Virus record (IMG/VR): IMGVR_UViG_3300032561_000131
Location: 1 to 23,742 of that record
Direction: 5' to 3' (one strand)
DNA: 23,742 nucleotides
Source: a virus
Shown here: positions 3,698 to 17,921 of the stretch, in pieces
How the letters are laid out: each line of letters starts with the position of its first letter
Numbering within the stretch: position 1 is the stretch's first letter
Program-made: the position numbers and the translations under genes
The notes under the pieces: generated by a model
Seen by the model: the letters and a program-made list of their open reading frames with translations, nothing else
Databases searched by the model: none
Told to the model about the DNA's origin: nothing

Positions 3698-5296
3698 TTA
3701 CAGCGAAGAATCCGTAATCTCATTCATTCGTCCTGTGTCCTTATTATACAGCAAAGCAGAACAATTAGGGCTAGTAAGTCCAGAAAATCTGTTCTTTAAT
3801 ATGGAAACACGGGTAGTGTTGCGTTCTATGGCCTCCTCATGCTGCCCATTACGCACTAATCCTATCACAATATCACTCAATTGTCCAATACTACCTGACC
3901 CACGAAGCTGAGACAATGTTGTAGCAGCACCCTCCTCATGCCCTTTACTCTCCGGGCGCTTAAGATGGGATACAGCAATAAGACAAATTCCAGTTTCTTG
4001 GACCAGCATCCGTAGCTTTGTCATAAGTTCGTCTATTGATTTTCTCTCATCACCGTTAGATTGTGCCGAAATTACCATACTAATATGATCTAGAAAGACA
4101 TATTTACAGTCTGCCGCTTTAGCAAAGTACCGTATTCTGTTGATAACATTATCAATATCAGTAGACCCAAAATTGTCCCAGAAAAATAGCCTGTCAGTGC
4201 CCATAGTAGATTCAAAGGCACGTCGTAGTTCCTCCTCTGAGGCATACGTATCCGGTAAGTGTAGTGGGCGATTAAGGGATAAAGACATTATAGACTTAGC
4301 AGTACGGGGCACTGATTCTTCCATAAACATTAGGCCGATGTTCTCCTGTGTGGTTTGGATTAAATGCCACAGAATCTCCCGGAGGAATTGAGACTTGCCT
4401 AAACCGCTGCCAGCACACACAGTAACCAACTCTCCACCGCGCAGCCCATAGGTCAGGTCGTTAACACCCTGCCACGGGTAGAGTGCCATAGCCTTTTCAA
4501 CTGGTTTATTGACAGCCTCCCACAAAGTAGACCCTGCTATGATTCCATCAGGAACCCACTGCTCTGCCGCCCACCACTGCTTAACATATTCTCCACCTTT
4601 CCCTGCTTTCAGGTAATCACAGGCATCCTTGAAACCCTGTACGTGCTTCAGTATCTTGCACTTGCTGCCTAGCACCTCTGCCACCTGATTTGCAGCAATA
4701 ATACCTGGTTCGTCGTTATCAAAGCTAATAACAATAGACTCAAAAGACTGTAACCATTCGTAAGACTGTTTAATATCCTTTAAGGCAGACTGAGCACCGT
4801 TACGGATAGACACGTTGGGATACTTGCTGCCTGCCATCTGATAGCCCGCAAGGGCATCTAGTTCGCCCTCGTGTATGGTTACAGTGCGTCCTCCTTTTGC
4901 AAAGTAAGACTGGCCAAACAATACCGCCTGCTTCCAGTCCCCTGATACAGCAAACTGCTTCGTAGACACTGTACGGGTCTTAGAGGCCACGATTTCGCCT
5001 GATTCGTTGGTGTACGGATAGTGTTGTTTATCACCGTCCGCGGTCACCCCGTAAGACATACAGGTATCCTTGGTTATCCCTCGCTCTGAAATAGCTTTAT
5101 AATCTCCTTTTGTCTCTATCTTCTTAGCTTCTTGCCATGGTATATCATTAGGCATATCGTCTAAACTACCTCGTATGTGATTATGGCATATATGACAGTA
5201 TTCGTGACCATCGTCATATAGACTATTGCCATCACTGCTACCGCATTTCTTACATGGAATATGTTTTATAAATTTACTTTCATTCAATATAGTCAT
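3698..5296 (-). CDS. Bifunctional DNA primase-helicase (T7 gp4-like)
   Basis: The 532-residue protein joins a primase to a replicative helicase. An N-terminal zinc-binding domain has CKKC (C15, C18) and CHIC (C34, C37). A TOPRIM domain follows with HEGE around residue 143 and FDNDEPG around 193-197. A DnaB-type RecA motor then shows Walker A AGSGLGKS (about 295-302), Walker B YVFLDH (D403), an SHLKRPE segment and a C-terminal LKNRFSG arginine-finger region. It would unwind the fork and lay down RNA primers for the phage polymerase. A TTG six bases upstream (5302) lies almost on top of the Shine-Dalgarno. The ATG at 5296 has AGGAG at 7-base spacing and is preferred. It is slightly shorter than T7 gp4A (566 aa) but has all major motifs. 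Confidence 0.96.
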   Translation of the reverse strand: MTILNESKFIKHIPCKKCGSSDGNSLYDDGHEYCHICHNHIRGSLDDMPNDIPWQEAKKIETKGDYKAISERGITKDTCMSYGVTADGDKQHYPYTNESGEIVASKTRTVSTKQFAVSGDWKQAVLFGQSYFAKGGRTVTIHEGELDALAGYQMAGSKYPNVSIRNGAQSALKDIKQSYEWLQSFESIVISFDNDEPGIIAANQVAEVLGSKCKILKHVQGFKDACDYLKAGKGGEYVKQWWAAEQWVPDGIIAGSTLWEAVNKPVEKAMALYPWQGVNDLTYGLRGGELVTVCAGSGLGKSQFLREILWHLIQTTQENIGLMFMEESVPRTAKSIMSLSLNRPLHLPDTYASEEELRRAFESTMGTDRLFFWDNFGSTDIDNVINRIRYFAKAADCKYVFLDHISMVISAQSNGDERKSIDELMTKLRMLVQETGICLIAVSHLKRPESKGHEEGAATTLSQLRGSGSIGQLSDIVIGLVRNGQHEEAIERNTTRVSILKNRFSGLTSPNCSALLYNKDTGRMNEITDSSL

Positions 5297-6417: not shown

Positions 6418-6718
6418 ATACTTCACCTGCGTCTAGTTCTGCCTCATTAGTCCAGTATTTAATTAGTAAGTCTTGAAGATGTGTGCCCAAGGCCCCCCCG
6501 TTCTTCATTAATGCTAACTGTTCCAATTGTTTATAGTCTATTTCTGCATTGATAAAGAATAGCTCTATATTTTTAGCACTAAAAGGAAAGCACTTTTCAC
6601 CGGGCAGCAGCAAAGATAACGCCATCGACTTTATTGCGCTTTGTCTTTTTTCGGCCCTAATCTCGCTGTTTTCGTATTTGCGTAGTTCGTATGATTCAAA
6701 ATCAAAGTAGTGCATCAT
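6407..6718 (-). CDS. Small phage protein, function unknown
   Basis: A 103-residue ORF starting with two ATGs (6718 and 6715), preceded by AGGAG 9 bases upstream. No domain is recognised. The sequence is helical and charged in its first third, with a hydrophobic stretch SMALSLLLPGEKCFPF around residues 31-46 that is too short and interrupted for a confident membrane helix. Its leader is identical over 19 bases to that of the ORF at 9330-9470 (see the repeat entry). It starts the run of overlapping tiny genes downstream of the methyltransferase cassette. Confidence 0.75.
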   Translation of the reverse strand: MMHYFDFESYELRKYENSEIRAEKRQSAIKSMALSLLLPGEKCFPFSAKNIELFFINAEIDYKQLEQLALMKNGGALGTHLQDLLIKYWTNEAELDAGEVYDY

Positions 6719-6731
6719 TTTAATTACTCCT
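6713..6731. repeat. 19-bp direct repeat, copy 1 (other copy 9465-9483)
   Basis: The sequence catcattttaattactcct on the plus strand is present exactly at 6713-6731 and at 9465-9483. On the coding strand it is a ribosome-binding leader ending in ATGATG: copy 1 serves the 103-aa gene, copy 2 the N-terminal remnant. The two copies are 2752 bp apart and bracket the split Ala-rich gene plus the helicase-methyltransferase cassette. Similar but inexact leaders occur elsewhere in the cluster (for example before the 88-aa gene at 10236), so the identity may be shared leader ancestry. Confidence 0.7.
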
Positions 6732-6739
6732 ATAATGGT

Positions 6740-6913
6740 TTATTTAACTTGCCACGGCGCTTTGCCTTCACACATCGCAATAAACATTTCTTTCTGAGCA
6801 GCCCTTGCAGCAGCCAACGAAGCAGCCCATGCAGCATCCCACCGCGCAGCGGCCCACTTGATCGTAGAGCCAGCTTTTCTTTTCGGCCCACTGGATAAAA
6901 TCAGATATTTCAT
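6740..6913 (-). pseudogene. C-terminal remnant of an Ala-rich phage protein
   Basis: This 57-codon frame starts at an ATG overlapping the stop of the zinc-ribbon ORF (ATGA). It reads through an alanine-rich repeat (KWAAARWDAAWAASLAAARA) to QKEMFIAMCEGKAPWQVK. From memory, this is how a widespread phage/proteobacterial protein family ends. Those proteins begin with a TLNxIRxxxPCxxGWxKLL motif and finish in Ala-rich AAWAAARDAA repeats. The matching N-terminal motif lies on the same strand at 9330-9470. I therefore read this as the tail of one gene split by the helicase-methyltransferase cassette. It may still be translated by coupling. The first 17 codons are probably not original sequence. The frame is open further upstream, to 7087, but that part overlaps the zinc-ribbon ORF and is most likely its shadow. 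Confidence 0.6.
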
Positions 6914-7101
6914 GACGCGATGGATCGGCTCGGTGCGTTCGGGTAAAACGTCAAAGCCATAAAGATTGACTCCTGCGCTTGGCGGTTCGGCCTTGCTGAC
7001 CGGATGTGGTCTACGCAGCAATCCAGACAAAAAGCGTTGAACCTTGCTGACAAGTGATTGGCTTTGCGTGCTTGGCATGATGGGCATCCTTTAGGCAACA
7101 T
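6910..7101 (-). CDS. Small Cys-rich zinc-ribbon protein, probably frameshifted at C-terminus
   Basis: A 63-residue ORF starting at an ATG (7101) inside the end of the helicase-methyltransferase gene, with an 11-base overlap. The product has CPSC at residues 7-10 and CLDCC at about 29-33, a likely zinc site, then SARPNRQAQESIF and FYPNAPSR. An in-frame ATG at 7116 adds five residues but is less natural. The frame ends soon after NAPSR in SIAS and a stop. In the next frame the DNA continues as PSRHEISDFIQWAEKKSWLY, which reads like the helical C-terminus expected after NAPSR. This suggests a small indel, a frameshift or a sequencing error near 6910-6930. Function unknown; it is part of the same cassette as the methyltransferase. 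Confidence 0.55.
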   Translation of the reverse strand: MLPKGCPSCQARKANHLSARFNAFCLDCCVDHIRSARPNRQAQESIFMALTFYPNAPSRSIAS

Positions 7102-9340
7102 CGGCAAACAAATCACCGTTTATCCGTTTAGCATCCGCACAATTCTTAACCGCTAGATCAAAATAAGAGCGTTTTAACTCGCTCCCAATTCCTTTTCGCC
7201 CCATCTTCACAGCACAATAAACTTCTGTGCCTATTCCGAGGAAAGGAGTGAATACTGTATCGCCTGGAGCAGTCCAAAGATGCAAAGCACGTTCTACAAT
7301 TTCAAGCTGTAATGGAGCGATATGCTTCACATCATCATCATCACGGCCTTCCCGATAATTCAAGGTATTAGACTGGTCAATATCCATCCACACGGGACTG
7401 GCATATTGTTGCCAAAGTTGAACAGGGAAAATGTTTACTACATCGCCATCGTTTTCTTCTCGCTCGGCTTCATCGCGATAATGAACAACGGGCTTATCGT
7501 TCTCACCGGGTTTACGCATGGTCACCAAATAGTCAGCGATTCCTTGGCGGCTCATAGCAGAATCTTTGCGGATGGTTTTGTGCAACAAGCCAAGGGCTTT
7601 TGTACGCTGCATCGCTACCACTGGATTTTTCCAGATGCAGACTTCGCTGTGATAAATCCATCCTGATTCTTCAAATAATTTGATTAAATGACCGCGAAAG
7701 TCCCTGATTCCAATATAGCCGTCATTAGTTTTAGAGGTAGGCAGGTTCATACAGTGAAATGATAGAAGCCTGCCGGGACGAGTGATTCTCAACATCTCAT
7801 CAACCAAGAATTTGAAGTGTTGATAAAACTGTTCGCGAGTTGAATTTCCCATGTCGCGCAAATGATTTGAAAATACGTACATGCTCTCAAAAGGTGGCGA
7901 GAATATCGTGTAGTCAATGGTTCCGGTTTCAATCTCTTTCGCCAAATCAACACAATCCGCAAGATGAATTTCATAATCATCTGTTTTAACCACAGCGCGT
8001 ACATATTCTGATTTTTCCTGAATCATGCCAAATATCTCCTTTTGCATAGCGGATCTCATATGTTTCACCATCTCGGCGCCCATTGTATTGTTTTGATCTT
8101 CTTTACGTTTGATGTTTGAAACTACAGCACCCTCTGATTCGGCACTGACTACATGTACATTCACAATCTTAGTTTGCCCGAATCGGTAAAATCTTCGGAT
8201 GGCTTGATAGTATTGTCTCCAACTATCAGATAAGCCAACGAAAGCCGTATTATGGCAACATTGAAGATTAAGACCGGCTCCTAGAATCTTTGGTTTACTA
8301 ACCACCACGCGAATAGAGCCATCTAAGAATCCGTTAATGGTTTGCTCTTTATGTTCGATTGAATCTGACCCAGACACATCAATTGCACCAGGAATTGATT
8401 GACAAAGCAATTCTGCCTCGGTATTGAGATGGCACCAGATTACCCATTGCTCGTCACTGGCGTTTACAACCTCTGCACATTTTGCAACACGATCATCCAC
8501 CGAATCCCTGCGGGCTTGGTTACGGCCTAACAGACCCGCAGCAATATCAGGAAACAGGCTATCGGTAGCTTTTGATTCCACCACATGCCCAATCATGTTT
8601 AACGGAGGGAGAATATACTCATCACCATCGAATCCAATATCTGCAGGACTACGGATACAGACTGACCATGTAGCCATCCATTCCCAGAATTTAACTTTGC
8701 CATGACCTTTTAAAACCCATTTTTGAGTATCCGAACCATCGTTTACAAAATACATGGCCAGCATTTCAGACATGCTCATGATTCCCAAAAACTCTGCCTG
8801 ATTACCGATCTCCATAAAATCATTCGGTGATGGTGTGGCAGTACAACAAAGCCTATATGGAACCACTGAACAAGCATCAATCATGTAATTCCGTGTTTTA
8901 CCATCACGGTTTGAGATAATGTCCGATTCATCCAACACAACACCGACGAACAATGATAGATCAAATCTATCCATCATTTCATAATTGGTGATGTTAACGC
9001 CCGGTTTAACTTGATCTTGACTGCGGCAATAATTTAAAGATATTCCGAACCGTTCTCCTTCCCTTACGGTTTGAAGGGCTACGCAAAGTGGTGCGAAGAT
9101 AATCACATTTTGGTTAGTATGATTTGAAACTTCGTCCGCCCAGACTAATTGTTGAATCGTTTTACCTAATCCAGTATCTTCAAACAGAGCGGCTCGTCCA
9201 CGTTTCAATGCCCACTTAACTACTGCGCGCTGAAAAGGTTTGAGTGATTCATTCAATGAATCAGGATCAATGTCAAACCCACAAATCAATGGCTTGATTT
9301 TTTTGGCTTCAATAAACTCTTGATAGGCGTTAGTTTGCAT
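7091..9340 (-). CDS. SNF2/DEAD-like helicase fused to DNA methyltransferase
   Basis: A 749-residue two-part protein. The N-terminal half is a superfamily 2 ATPase with Walker A GLGKT (57-61), a VLDESD box (D/E at 137-140), TATPSP motif III (167-172) and a motif VI-like QAIRRFYRFGQT (379-390) with arginine fingers. The C-terminal half is an amino-methyltransferase in beta-class order. The catalytic motif IV SPPF (481-484) comes first, and the AdoMet-binding FLGIGTE (700-706) is near the end. It would modify adenine or cytosine amino groups in phage DNA and might protect it from host restriction. SPPF differs from the commoner DPPY/SPPY, so activity needs testing. A TTG at 9364 could extend it, but the ATG at 9340 has AAAGGA upstream and is preferred. 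The gene interrupts an Ala-rich protein gene whose pieces flank it. Confidence 0.9.
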   Translation of the reverse strand: MQTNAYQEFIEAKKIKPLICGFDIDPDSLNESLKPFQRAVVKWALKRGRAALFEDTGLGKTIQQLVWADEVSNHTNQNVIIFAPLCVALQTVREGERFGISLNYCRSQDQVKPGVNITNYEMMDRFDLSLFVGVVLDESDIISNRDGKTRNYMIDACSVVPYRLCCTATPSPNDFMEIGNQAEFLGIMSMSEMLAMYFVNDGSDTQKWVLKGHGKVKFWEWMATWSVCIRSPADIGFDGDEYILPPLNMIGHVVESKATDSLFPDIAAGLLGRNQARRDSVDDRVAKCAEVVNASDEQWVIWCHLNTEAELLCQSIPGAIDVSGSDSIEHKEQTINGFLDGSIRVVVSKPKILGAGLNLQCCHNTAFVGLSDSWRQYYQAIRRFYRFGQTKIVNVHVVSAESEGAVVSNIKRKEDQNNTMGAEMVKHMRSAMQKEIFGMIQEKSEYVRAVVKTDDYEIHLADCVDLAKEIETGTIDYTIFSPPFESMYVFSNHLRDMGNSTREQFYQHFKFLVDEMLRITRPGRLLSFHCMNLPTSKTNDGYIGIRDFRGHLIKLFEESGWIYHSEVCIWKNPVVAMQRTKALGLLHKTIRKDSAMSRQGIADYLVTMRKPGENDKPVVHYRDEAEREENDGDVVNIFPVQLWQQYASPVWMDIDQSNTLNYREGRDDDDVKHIAPLQLEIVERALHLWTAPGDTVFTPFLGIGTEVYCAVKMGRKGIGSELKRSYFDLAVKNCADAKRINGDLFADVA

Positions 9341-9470
9341 ATTGATTTTCCTTTCGAGTTCCAAAGTCCACGCTATCTGCTTTTATCTTTCCTGGGTGTT
9401 TTAATAGCTTCACCCATCCTGGTTCGCAAGGACCATGTATCCTTATTTCGTTTAGTGTTGTATACATCAT
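9330..9470 (-). pseudogene. N-terminal remnant of the split Ala-rich phage protein
   Basis: A 46-codon ORF beginning MMYTTLNEIRIHGPCEPGW and continuing VKLLKHPGKIKAD. I recognise this as the N-terminus of a common phage/bacterial family (TLNxIRxxxPCxxGWxKLLxxLGKTxADDEPL) normally well over 100 residues long. Here the family pattern stops at about residue 32 (position 9375). The reading then runs into sequence containing the Shine-Dalgarno of the methyltransferase gene and stops 11 bases inside it. A good AGGAG site precedes the tandem ATGs, so the fragment is probably still translated and feeds ribosomes to the methyltransferase start. Its lost C-terminal end appears to survive at 6740-6855. 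Confidence 0.65.
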
Positions 9471-9475
9471 TTTAA

Positions 9476-9802
9476 TTACTCCTCATCAAGGTGTGCGATC
9501 ATGTTATCAATCCATAACAATCTGCTTTTTTTGCTGTCGAAATTAAGCAATTCTTCTTCACATGCGTCGTATAGGCCGGGTATTGAGGGACAAAGGCCCT
9601 TACTTGATAAATACCAATCTTCTAGTGTAGCCCAGCTACCCAGCATACTTTTAATCCAGTCTTTTAAGTCGTGAACAAGGCAGTTACTCTCTGCCCCTTT
9701 GGCCTTATCAATGGAGTGACATATAAAATATTCCTGACCACTGGCAATGTATTCTCTAGTCTTTCTTAAAAGTATTACACATTCTTTAGCATGGGTTCGC
9801 AT
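9476..9802 (-). CDS. Conserved-type phage protein of 108 residues, function unknown
   Basis: The product begins MRTHAKECVILLRKTREYI. It is helical with several conserved-looking Trp and Cys (CHSIDKAKG, a DWIKSMLGSW stretch and a LLWIDNMIAHLDEE C-terminus). The spacing is like phage proteins annotated only as hypothetical. A GTG three bases earlier (9805) lies too close to AGGAG; the ATG at 9802 has 6-base spacing and is preferred. It overlaps the end of the upstream 65-aa gene by 17 bases. Function unknown. Confidence 0.8.
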   Translation of the reverse strand: MRTHAKECVILLRKTREYIASGQEYFICHSIDKAKGAESNCLVHDLKDWIKSMLGSWATLEDWYLSSKGLCPSIPGLYDACEEELLNFDSKKSRLLWIDNMIAHLDEE

Positions 9803-11357: not shown

Positions 11358-12149
11358 TTACACGCTTATCAGCTTTCCTGCTTTAAGTATTTTATCAGCA
11401 GCCCCAAATATCCTTTGGGCGGACTTTTCAGGAATGGTGGCACCTTGAAGCCAGCTTTGAATATAATCGCGGCTTTCTGCTTGCCCGGGTAATCCCAATA
11501 AGGTACATAGTAAATAAGCTACCCCTTCCGCTTCAGCTTCTTTTATACTCTTTGGGGTTTTGTCATTGTCTGACATTAGGTTCTCTACCGTATGGCCTAA
11601 AACAACGTGGGCCAATTCGTGAAAGCGTGTTTTGTGTGGCAATACTGCTAAAGGATTAATCGCGATCATCTTGCTATCCGCATACCCTTGGCAATTGCCA
11701 TCGATCAGATTAAATCTTCCTTCTGTTATTTCTAGAGCAAGAAGAGCTGCATTTTTATCCCACACCGGGTTCGTTACTTCATTTTGATAATCTTCGCCTT
11801 CTGTTTGATCTAAAGAGAACCAGTTATTGCGCCAAACAAAGCGGTTAAACGTAAATTCTTCGTCGCCTTTTGTGGTGTGTTTGGTGCCTTTCATGCTAAC
11901 AGGCATACAGAGTGCAAGGGCCTTTTCACCCTTTTTTACATTACGACCTTTTTCTTTCCAAGCCCTGAATGATGCAATGGGGGCGATTGGCAGTCCTTTT
12001 GATCCAAGCTGAAACGCCGCTGCAAGCTGATTACCTAAGCTGTACGAATGAAAGGCCGAATAGCCAGCGGATAATTTTCCGGGTTCAGTAATGGCTGATT
12101 GCAAGATCGTTACCCATGCTGTTTTGTCCGTATTAATATCGTATGTCAT
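11358..12149 (-). CDS. ArdC-like antirestriction protein
   Basis: A 263-residue protein with the two parts of ArdC-type proteins. The N-terminal ssDNA-binding domain carries IASFRAWKEKGRNVKKGEKA at about 58-77 and a FSLDQTEG segment near 111-118. The C-terminal zincin domain has HELAH at 177-181, H186 and the acidic helix EAEAEGVAYLL around 204-214, which supplies the third ligand. ArdC proteins protect incoming DNA from host restriction in plasmids and phages; their peptidase targets are uncertain. It is the first gene of the leftward cluster, next to the promoter at 12188-12215, so it should be made very early. The ATG at 12149 has AAGGA upstream. Confidence 0.92.
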   Translation of the reverse strand: MTYDINTDKTAWVTILQSAITEPGKLSAGYSAFHSYSLGNQLAAAFQLGSKGLPIAPIASFRAWKEKGRNVKKGEKALALCMPVSMKGTKHTTKGDEEFTFNRFVWRNNWFSLDQTEGEDYQNEVTNPVWDKNAALLALEITEGRFNLIDGNCQGYADSKMIAINPLAVLPHKTRFHELAHVVLGHTVENLMSDNDKTPKSIKEAEAEGVAYLLCTLLGLPGQAESRDYIQSWLQGATIPEKSAQRIFGAADKILKAGKLISV

Positions 12150-12529: not shown

Positions 12530-13060
12530 CTATACAGAACCTATACAGCACACACCCACTAGGTATACAATCAAGATACACCCTGTTGGGAAGTGTGTAG
12601 ACAATGTATAGACAAACAACCGAGATAATCAGGACTGTATAGACAGCCAGTGCTGTATAGATGACCAGTACTGTGTTTATACCCAGGGCAGGGGCAAAAA
12701 ACTGCCGAAGAATTGTTTTTAGACGCTACATTTAACGCTGCTGTAACTTTTGAGAATAGGGGTCTATGACTTTAACGCTGCTGTAACTTTTAAGAACAGG
12801 GGCCTATGATTTTAACGCTGCTGTAACTTTTGAGAATAGGGGTCTATACAGACTAATGAGTACTGAGGTGTACTCGTAGCCCTGAGCAGGCTACTGATCT
12901 GTTCTCTTTAGCCCTTTGGGGACTATATAGTACTACTTAGATTCGTCTTTAATCCTTCAAAGCTTCTAAATAGATAAAAACTTAAATAATAGTTATATTT
13001 AGTTTTTAATTACTGAAGATTACTGATGTTGTTACTTTGAATCTGCATCAAACTATACAG
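12530..13060. repeat. Dispersed octamer CTATACAG in both orientations
   Basis: CTATACAG occurs at 12530-12537, 12541-12548, 12844-12851 and 13053-13060. Its reverse complement CTGTATAG occurs at 12635-12642 and 12653-12660, and one mismatch copy ATGTATAG at 12604-12611. Six exact copies in about 530 bp is far above chance for an octamer, even allowing for AT content. One more exact copy seen inside a coding gene (21209-21216) shows it is not unique to this region. Confidence 0.55.
12731..12850 (+). repeat. Three tandem 40-bp repeats
   Basis: Three head-to-tail units of exactly 40 bp begin at 12731, 12771 and 12811, each starting TTTAACGCTGCTGTAACTTT. Unit 2 differs from unit 1 at a few positions; unit 3 matches unit 1 until its last few bases. 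The sequence following unit 3 runs into a CTATACAG octamer. Regular spacing close to four helical turns would put a bound protein on one face of the DNA, as with iterons. The unit carries stops in reading frames and is unlikely to code. Confidence 0.8.
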
Positions 13061-17362: not shown

Positions 17363-17590
17363 ATGGCAATAGTTGTAACCCCAGAAGAGTTTAAGGATTG
17401 GAAGCAGCACCAAGTAACAGAAGCCTTTATGAAAGCATTAAGTAATGATCGAGAGTGGTTAAAGGAAATACTGTTAGCAGGAACAGAGGATGATGACAAT
17501 GTCCGAGGCCGTGCAGCAGCTATAACTAGTATATTATCATTATCATATGAAGAACTAATGGATGCTGTTAAGGAGAATCGTAATGCTTAA
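17363..17590 (+). CDS. Small conserved-type protein between portal and co-chaperonin
   Basis: A 75-residue helical acidic protein beginning MAIVVTPEEFKDWKQHQ, with a strong AAGGAG before its ATG. It contains SNDREWLKEILLAGTEDDDN in the middle and ends KENRNA. Its size and place after portal suggest a small head-assembly or capsid-associated protein, but no motif confirms this. Its last bases overlap the co-chaperonin start by 8, so translation is coupled. Confidence 0.75.
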   Translation: MAIVVTPEEFKDWKQHQVTEAFMKALSNDREWLKEILLAGTEDDDNVRGRAAAITSILSLSYEELMDAVKENRNA

Positions 17591-17921
17591 TCCTTCCGGT
17601 ATTCACCCAATCTTTGATCGTGTACTTGTCCTACCGTTAGAAGTAGAAGAAAAGACAGCAAGCGGTATTATTGTATCCACCAAAGAAAACAATGAACGGG
17701 AACAGTTAGCCAATACAACAGGAGTTATTATTGCGTTAGGTGATGAGGTTCCGCTAGATATTGTTAAGGTTGGTATGAAAGTAGCATATGCTAAATATGC
17801 TGGTCTGATGTACAAAGGGAAGGATAAACGAGATTATCGTATGGTTAACTATGATGATTTAGTAGCTAGATTAGATGATGATATGGTCTTAATTGACCCA
17901 CATCTTTCATTAGGAGTTTAA
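17583..17921 (+). CDS. GroES-like co-chaperonin
   Basis: A 112-residue Cpn10 family protein. After MLNPSGIHPIFDRVLVLPLE comes the mobile-loop region with SGIIVSTKE at about 27-35, the GroEL-binding tripeptide being in IIV. There follows NTTGVIIALGDE (the GV-x-A-x-G strand), VGMKVAYAKYAG and a C-terminal YRMVNYDDLVARLDDD, all in Cpn10 order. It would cap the host GroEL chamber and help fold phage capsid protein, as T4 gp31 does. An ATG at 17562 would add seven residues, but AAGGAG just before 17583 favours the shorter form. No GroEL is seen in the window. It sits between portal and scaffold. Confidence 0.92.
   Translation: MLNPSGIHPIFDRVLVLPLEVEEKTASGIIVSTKENNEREQLANTTGVIIALGDEVPLDIVKVGMKVAYAKYAGLMYKGKDKRDYRMVNYDDLVARLDDDMVLIDPHLSLGV

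Follow-up and report, generated by a model that had tools for sequence, protein, structure and literature searches.

Apparent exchange of a two-gene helicase-methyltransferase module into the middle of an alanine-rich accessory gene within an environmental phage population

Both homologous and illegitimate recombination routes have been documented in phages (PMC8136500), and homology-driven, divergence-tolerant exchange has been described as the main source of mosaicism in E. coli phages (PMC3945230). The locus described here lies in a window of 23,742 nucleotides, i.e., the whole stretch of viral DNA that was analysed. It resembles such mosaics (PMC3945230, PMC8136500) in its sharp switch from near-identical flanks to foreign DNA, in the homology at an edge and in the passage of small sets of genes from one phage to another. 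It departs from the usual picture in that the joints lie inside a gene of which both truncated ends are left, and in that near-identical genomes occur with the site empty and with it occupied. As with phage morons and accessory DNA methyltransferases, the window has a modification gene that sister genomes lack and that brings its own ribosome-binding site (RBS), but the module has taken the place of part of a gene and not a position between genes, and it consists of two overlapping genes.

The larger of these genes encodes a helicase-methyltransferase (helicase-MTase) that has described counterparts. DarB-type antirestriction proteins, known from phage P1 and among the polyvalent proteins, are very large and carry a methylase followed by an SNF2 module (PMC5512222). 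Both they and the window protein join an SNF2-type ATPase to a DNA methylase, but the window protein has the reversed domain order and a methylase of the PF01555 type, is 749–757 aa long and shows no sign of packaging in the virion. Because the domain order is opposite, DarB serves as an analogy for how the protein might work and not as a family to which it belongs. The same domain order as in the window is found in PHROG 16, with examples from Synechococcus phage S-CBS3, EBPR podovirus 1 and Flavobacterium columnare phages to which the window protein aligns over the full length at 44–55% identity; many PHROG 16 relatives encode helicase and methylase as two overlapping genes, whereas the window has a single ORF.

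Window coordinates are used throughout, and the remnants, cassette genes and repeats are all on the minus strand. The locus is laid out as follows:

9805–9476 (−), upstream gene, followed by AGGAGTAATTAAAATGATG and then by a 46-codon ORF (9470–9331)
9465–9483 (−), AGGAGTAATTAAAATGATG, left copy of a 19-bp direct repeat, with the RBS and start of the N-terminal remnant; probably the left recombination edge
9376–9470 (−), N-terminal remnant (codons 1–32) of a phrog_18326 Ala-rich gene, divergent allele
9341–9375 (−), left junction stretch, matching nothing and holding the AAGGA site of the helicase gene
7091–9340 (−), helicase-methyltransferase, SNF2 ATPase followed by N6_N4 methylase; ATG at 9340, alternative TTG at 9364
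6910–7116 (−), zinc-ribbon-like protein of 68 aa (CPSC...FCLDC), overlapping the end of the helicase-MTase gene
6856–6913 (−), right junction stretch, opening a possible 57-aa chimeric ORF
6740–6855 (−), C-terminal remnant of the Ala-rich gene, the end of the Ala repeat up to KEMFIAMCEGKAPWQVK and the stop, resident allele
6713–6731 (−), AGGAGTAATTAAAATGATG, right copy of the direct repeat, with the RBS and start of the next gene

An earlier note on this DNA had proposed that both ends of one Ala-rich gene remain here, with a helicase-methyltransferase and a zinc-ribbon ORF (about 2.5 kb) between them, and the ORFs, domains and family matches bear this out. The ORF at 9470–9331 translates as MMYTTLNEIRIHGPCEPGWVKLLKHPGKIKADSVDFGTRKENQYAN followed by a stop, and its residues 1–32 match positions 2–33 of 203 in phrog_18326 (profile search, E 2.5e-7). 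It carries the N-terminal domain pattern of the family, TLNEIR...PC..GW.KLL.HL.K...DD, and keeps 11 of the 12 invariant positions; Leu26 has become Pro, a change to be expected in a defunct fragment. The Ala-rich end of the frame at 7087–6740 matches positions 158–197 of the same family (E 0.022, weak alone), and its terminus, KEMFIAMCEGKAPWQVK, is identical to the gene end in an intact relative (L002), which is decisive. Similarity to phrog_18326 stops at 9376 on the left and resumes at about 6855 on the right, so that the two ends, instead of sharing a single ORF, are separated by 2.5 kb of other genes; the window copy of the Ala-rich gene is disrupted. The C-terminal remnant could still be read: the zinc-ribbon stop shares the sequence ATGA with an ATG at 6913, from which the frame runs on into the remnant.

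The intact form of the gene is widespread, its N-terminal domain being encoded by 370 stretches in viral contigs, and the complete ORFs with this domain that were inspected continue into an Ala-rich tail; the gene was not found in the sequenced stretches examined of more distant relatives of the window phage (mostly 70–77% primase identity). A good structure model of the N-terminal domain (pLDDT 91) gave no Foldseek match below E 2.6 and none above Z 4.6 with VIA-align. An association of the family with methylases was not borne out, as 80 loci had a Dcm-like gene nearby in 6 cases and a helicase-MTase in 1. In another phage (L172), an intact Ala-rich gene (4001–4309) has a helicase-methyltransferase (3–1343) about 2.7 kb upstream of it.

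Near-identical genomes with and without the cassette were recovered from IMG/VR, where a scan with the nearby primase-helicase gave five contigs with the primase fully covered and 100% identical, and the gene upstream of the cassette, used as query, gave four loci. The cassette is absent and the Ala-rich gene unbroken in three contigs (L002, L003 and L004) whose flanks are 98–99.9% identical to the window, so the split arrangement is not shared by all relatives and, as the earlier note had sought, an uninterrupted gene stands at the same locus. Identity is 98–98.8% on the left and 99.8–99.9% on the right for L002 (12.8 kb) and L003 (6.9 kb). The gene of L002 (6482–7141) encodes 219 aa, starting with MMYTTLNEIRLHSPC...KTKSDD and ending with AAQKEMFIAMCEGKAPWQVK before the stop, and matches phrog_18326 with an E-value of 1e-53; that of L004, a contig cut at its left end, is likewise uninterrupted and has a shorter Ala tract. 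Between L002 (6482–7141) and L004 (3–479) this tract differs by several large in-frame indels while the following genes are almost identical; the Ala-encoding tract is an unstable repeat. Two further contigs, L005 and L082, have the arrangement of the window including both junctions, with 3 differing bases in 13,880 and none in 8,751, respectively. Empty and occupied sites thus occur inside one environmental phage population. Several of the contigs' sample numbers may point to north-temperate bog lakes as habitat, although none of them is listed in the main text of a paper on such lakes. L005 also extends the window, with a B12-dependent ribonucleotide reductase (L005:15855–17702) adjoining the early genes, and the window itself encodes a GroES-like co-chaperonin (Cpn10, E 1.4e-13) among the structural genes at 17562–17921 (+).

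Comparison of the window with L002 shows that codons ~33 to ~181 of the Ala-rich gene (~450 bp) are gone and that ~2.5 kb stand in their place, the exact end of the missing part being blurred by repeats. A neighbouring 65-aa ORF (L002 6279–6476) is lost as well, so of the two possibilities raised earlier, that the cassette was inserted or swapped in, replacement stands and clean insertion does not. The 65-aa ORF difference spans exactly from one copy of the 16-bp core AGGAGTAATTAAAATG to another (L002 6266 and 6469). L002 has a third copy at 7150, giving three copies in L002, three in L003 and two in the window; exact copies number zero in ~760 kb of other primase-bearing loci from more distant relatives. 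On the left, the N-terminal remnant equals L002 over 40 bases (the RBS and the first 27 coding bases) and is divergent thereafter. On the right, 93 bp covering the end of the Ala-rich gene and beyond are identical between the window and L002. No donor was found: the ~35 bp to the left and ~55 bp to the right of the cassette match nothing in anything compared, so that one inner edge, or both, may have arisen by end joining. A donor gene in the right stretch (DFIQWAEKKSWLYDQV frame) was considered and set aside, as it is seen only in occupied-site contigs.

The window helicase-MTase has PF00176 (SNF2-rel_dom), PF00271 (Helicase_C) and PF01555 (N6_N4_Mtase) domains above cut-off and matches phrog_16 across residues 14–747 (E 2e-70), so that both the domain succession, SNF2/Helicase_C and then N6_N4 methylase, and the full-length alignment place it in PHROG 16. 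All seven aligned proteins conserve the motifs TG.GK(T/S), an LDES/D-type Walker B, SPPF and PF.G.G(T/S)E, and the methylase motifs stand in the order of the beta class (catalytic before SAM-binding). The protein matches 344 phage records, with at least 80% of its length covered in 304 of them, and is in itself of a widespread known type; a pattern scan of bacterial and archaeal genome contigs found no relative. A structure model was poor (pLDDT 64) and was not used. In loci L103–L134, helicase and methylase are often separate genes joined at ATGA, GTGA or TAATG overlaps, and the separate helicases have a similar end (W...NVE). Programmed frameshifting between the two frames was rejected because overlapping genes of the ATGA/GTGA type explain the relatives; the fused form in the window is one state of the gene pair. 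Of its starts, ATG 9340 is the best, with a Shine-Dalgarno-like AAGGA eight bases before it. The frame of the N-terminal remnant ends just past this ATG, so translational coupling between the two is possible and not required; the suggestion that the remnant now feeds the start of the methyltransferase holds at most as optional coupling.

The helicase-MTase and zinc-ribbon genes occur together once more, in a contig (L084) that has no resemblance to the window outside the gene pair, which meets the earlier expectation that the same cassette might exist at another locus. The pair is 83% identical at the DNA level, with protein identities of ~95% for the helicase-MTase and ~75% for the zinc-ribbon protein, a partner found only in these two places. 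Its neighbours, a small regulator upstream and a NinB-like ORF downstream, are presumably of lambdoid type. The pair in L084 is without Ala-gene flanks, so no intermediate is seen. A frameshift had been suspected in the window zinc-ribbon gene, but the L084 version is equally long and the gene looks full length. Over 669 codons of the helicase-MTase gene compared between the window and L084, pS is 0.66 and pN 0.031, giving a dN/dS of ~0.02 that is rough because synonymous sites are near saturation; the gene has been maintained under strong purifying selection. A DNA methyltransferase activity is predicted.

The two remnants differ in origin. The N-terminal remnant is 82.6% identical to L002 overall, while the flanks differ by only 1–2%, and is closer to the Ala-rich gene of a different phage, L147 (93% over 72 bp), which has a Dcm-like methylase near that gene and one-mismatch AGGAGTAATTAAAATG before it. 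L147 also shares with L002 a separate 366-bp segment at 97.3% identity, which indicates that the two lineages exchange DNA; besides this segment and the Ala-rich gene, L147 shares nothing else in 4.4 kb. The segment holds a 76-aa ORF (L002:2835–3191) with no counterpart at 12557/12558 of the window, so these near-identical phages differ in gene content at a second site. The N-terminal remnant is a foreign allele, nearest to that of L147, and the C-terminal remnant the resident one. Since the N-terminal allele differs from that of the empty-site relatives, the module probably arrived with the start of another phage's Ala-rich gene.

The reading that we favour, at a probability of roughly 0.82, is that phage-phage recombination swapped a two-gene DNA-modification module into the Ala-rich accessory gene of a tailed phage, replacing the middle of that gene, with homology at the ends probably helping. 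A fragment bearing a foreign Ala-gene start and the module, brought in when two phages co-infected a cell or when a lysogen was infected, would have been joined to the tail of the resident gene, helped on the left by identity at the gene start and the repeated RBS/start sequence and on the right by the Ala-encoding repeat tract. We infer both the order of these events and the recombination enzyme; the proteins scanned from the incomplete contig included none recognisable as a Rad52-like or RecT-like recombinase. Flanks of 98.8% and 99.8% identity, 40 identical bases at the left edge and an Ala repeat at the right edge are what mosaic exchange would leave.

An unlikelier account has homology playing no part: illegitimate recombination or end joining would have placed the two-gene fragment inside the resident gene, at the cost of the middle of that gene. 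The inner edges of the cassette indeed share no repeat and are bordered by the unmatched stretches, and illegitimate recombination is documented in phages (PMC8136500); against this, the foreign allele meets resident upstream DNA precisely within the 40-bp identical stretch and the 65-aa ORF was lost exactly between repeats, which points to a role of homology at the outer left edge at least. Very improbable is an assembly chimera of two different phages: all records are metagenome assemblies and the Ala repeat is prone to assembler error, but the same junctions recur in the window, L005 and L082, three contigs whose labels give distinct sample numbers or assemblies, and both flanks come from one phage lineage. 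Less credible still is insertion by a dedicated mobile element (a transposon, or a homing or free-standing nuclease system), even though a discrete two-gene unit sits in two unrelated contexts, the window and L084. The cassette has no transposase, HNH or GIY-YIG gene, much as the earlier note had seen no transposase or HNH nuclease; the target repeats it had thought worth seeking are missing, with neither target duplication nor terminal inverted repeat at the junctions, and target sequence was deleted and not duplicated. That both small ORFs are complete genes in their own right, and the relatives' gene a secondary fusion, is next to inconceivable, for although both remnants are open and translatable (46 and 57 codons), the intact Ala-tailed form is widespread and the N-terminal remnant has lost an invariant Leu.

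Phage-phage exchange of this kind is ordinary mosaicism, already known, and nothing marks a new mobile element; a literature search found no report of this particular gene swap. More tentatively, and with the odds against it, the locus might be a recurrent exchange slot in which genes headed by the 16–19-bp RBS/start repeat (the 65-aa ORF, the Ala-rich gene and the next gene) would be lost, exchanged or replaced through recombination between repeats and the unstable Ala tract. If so, no dedicated recombinase would be needed for the turnover of accessory counter-defence genes.

The module would travel along DNA and methylate that of the phage itself, which may protect this DNA from restriction-type systems in a counter-defence role. 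The window also encodes, at 12149–11358 (−), a protein with an ArdC N-terminal domain and a zincin-like metallopeptidase that matches the anti-restriction phrog_7245; it is likely a second anti-restriction gene of this phage, which fits a phage under restriction pressure. The locus amounts to a natural experiment in which one phage occurs both with the module and without it, its Ala-rich gene destroyed or intact and both edges readable. The pair of empty and occupied sites makes testable both the protection that the module may give against restriction-type defences and the dispensability of a widespread Ala-rich family.
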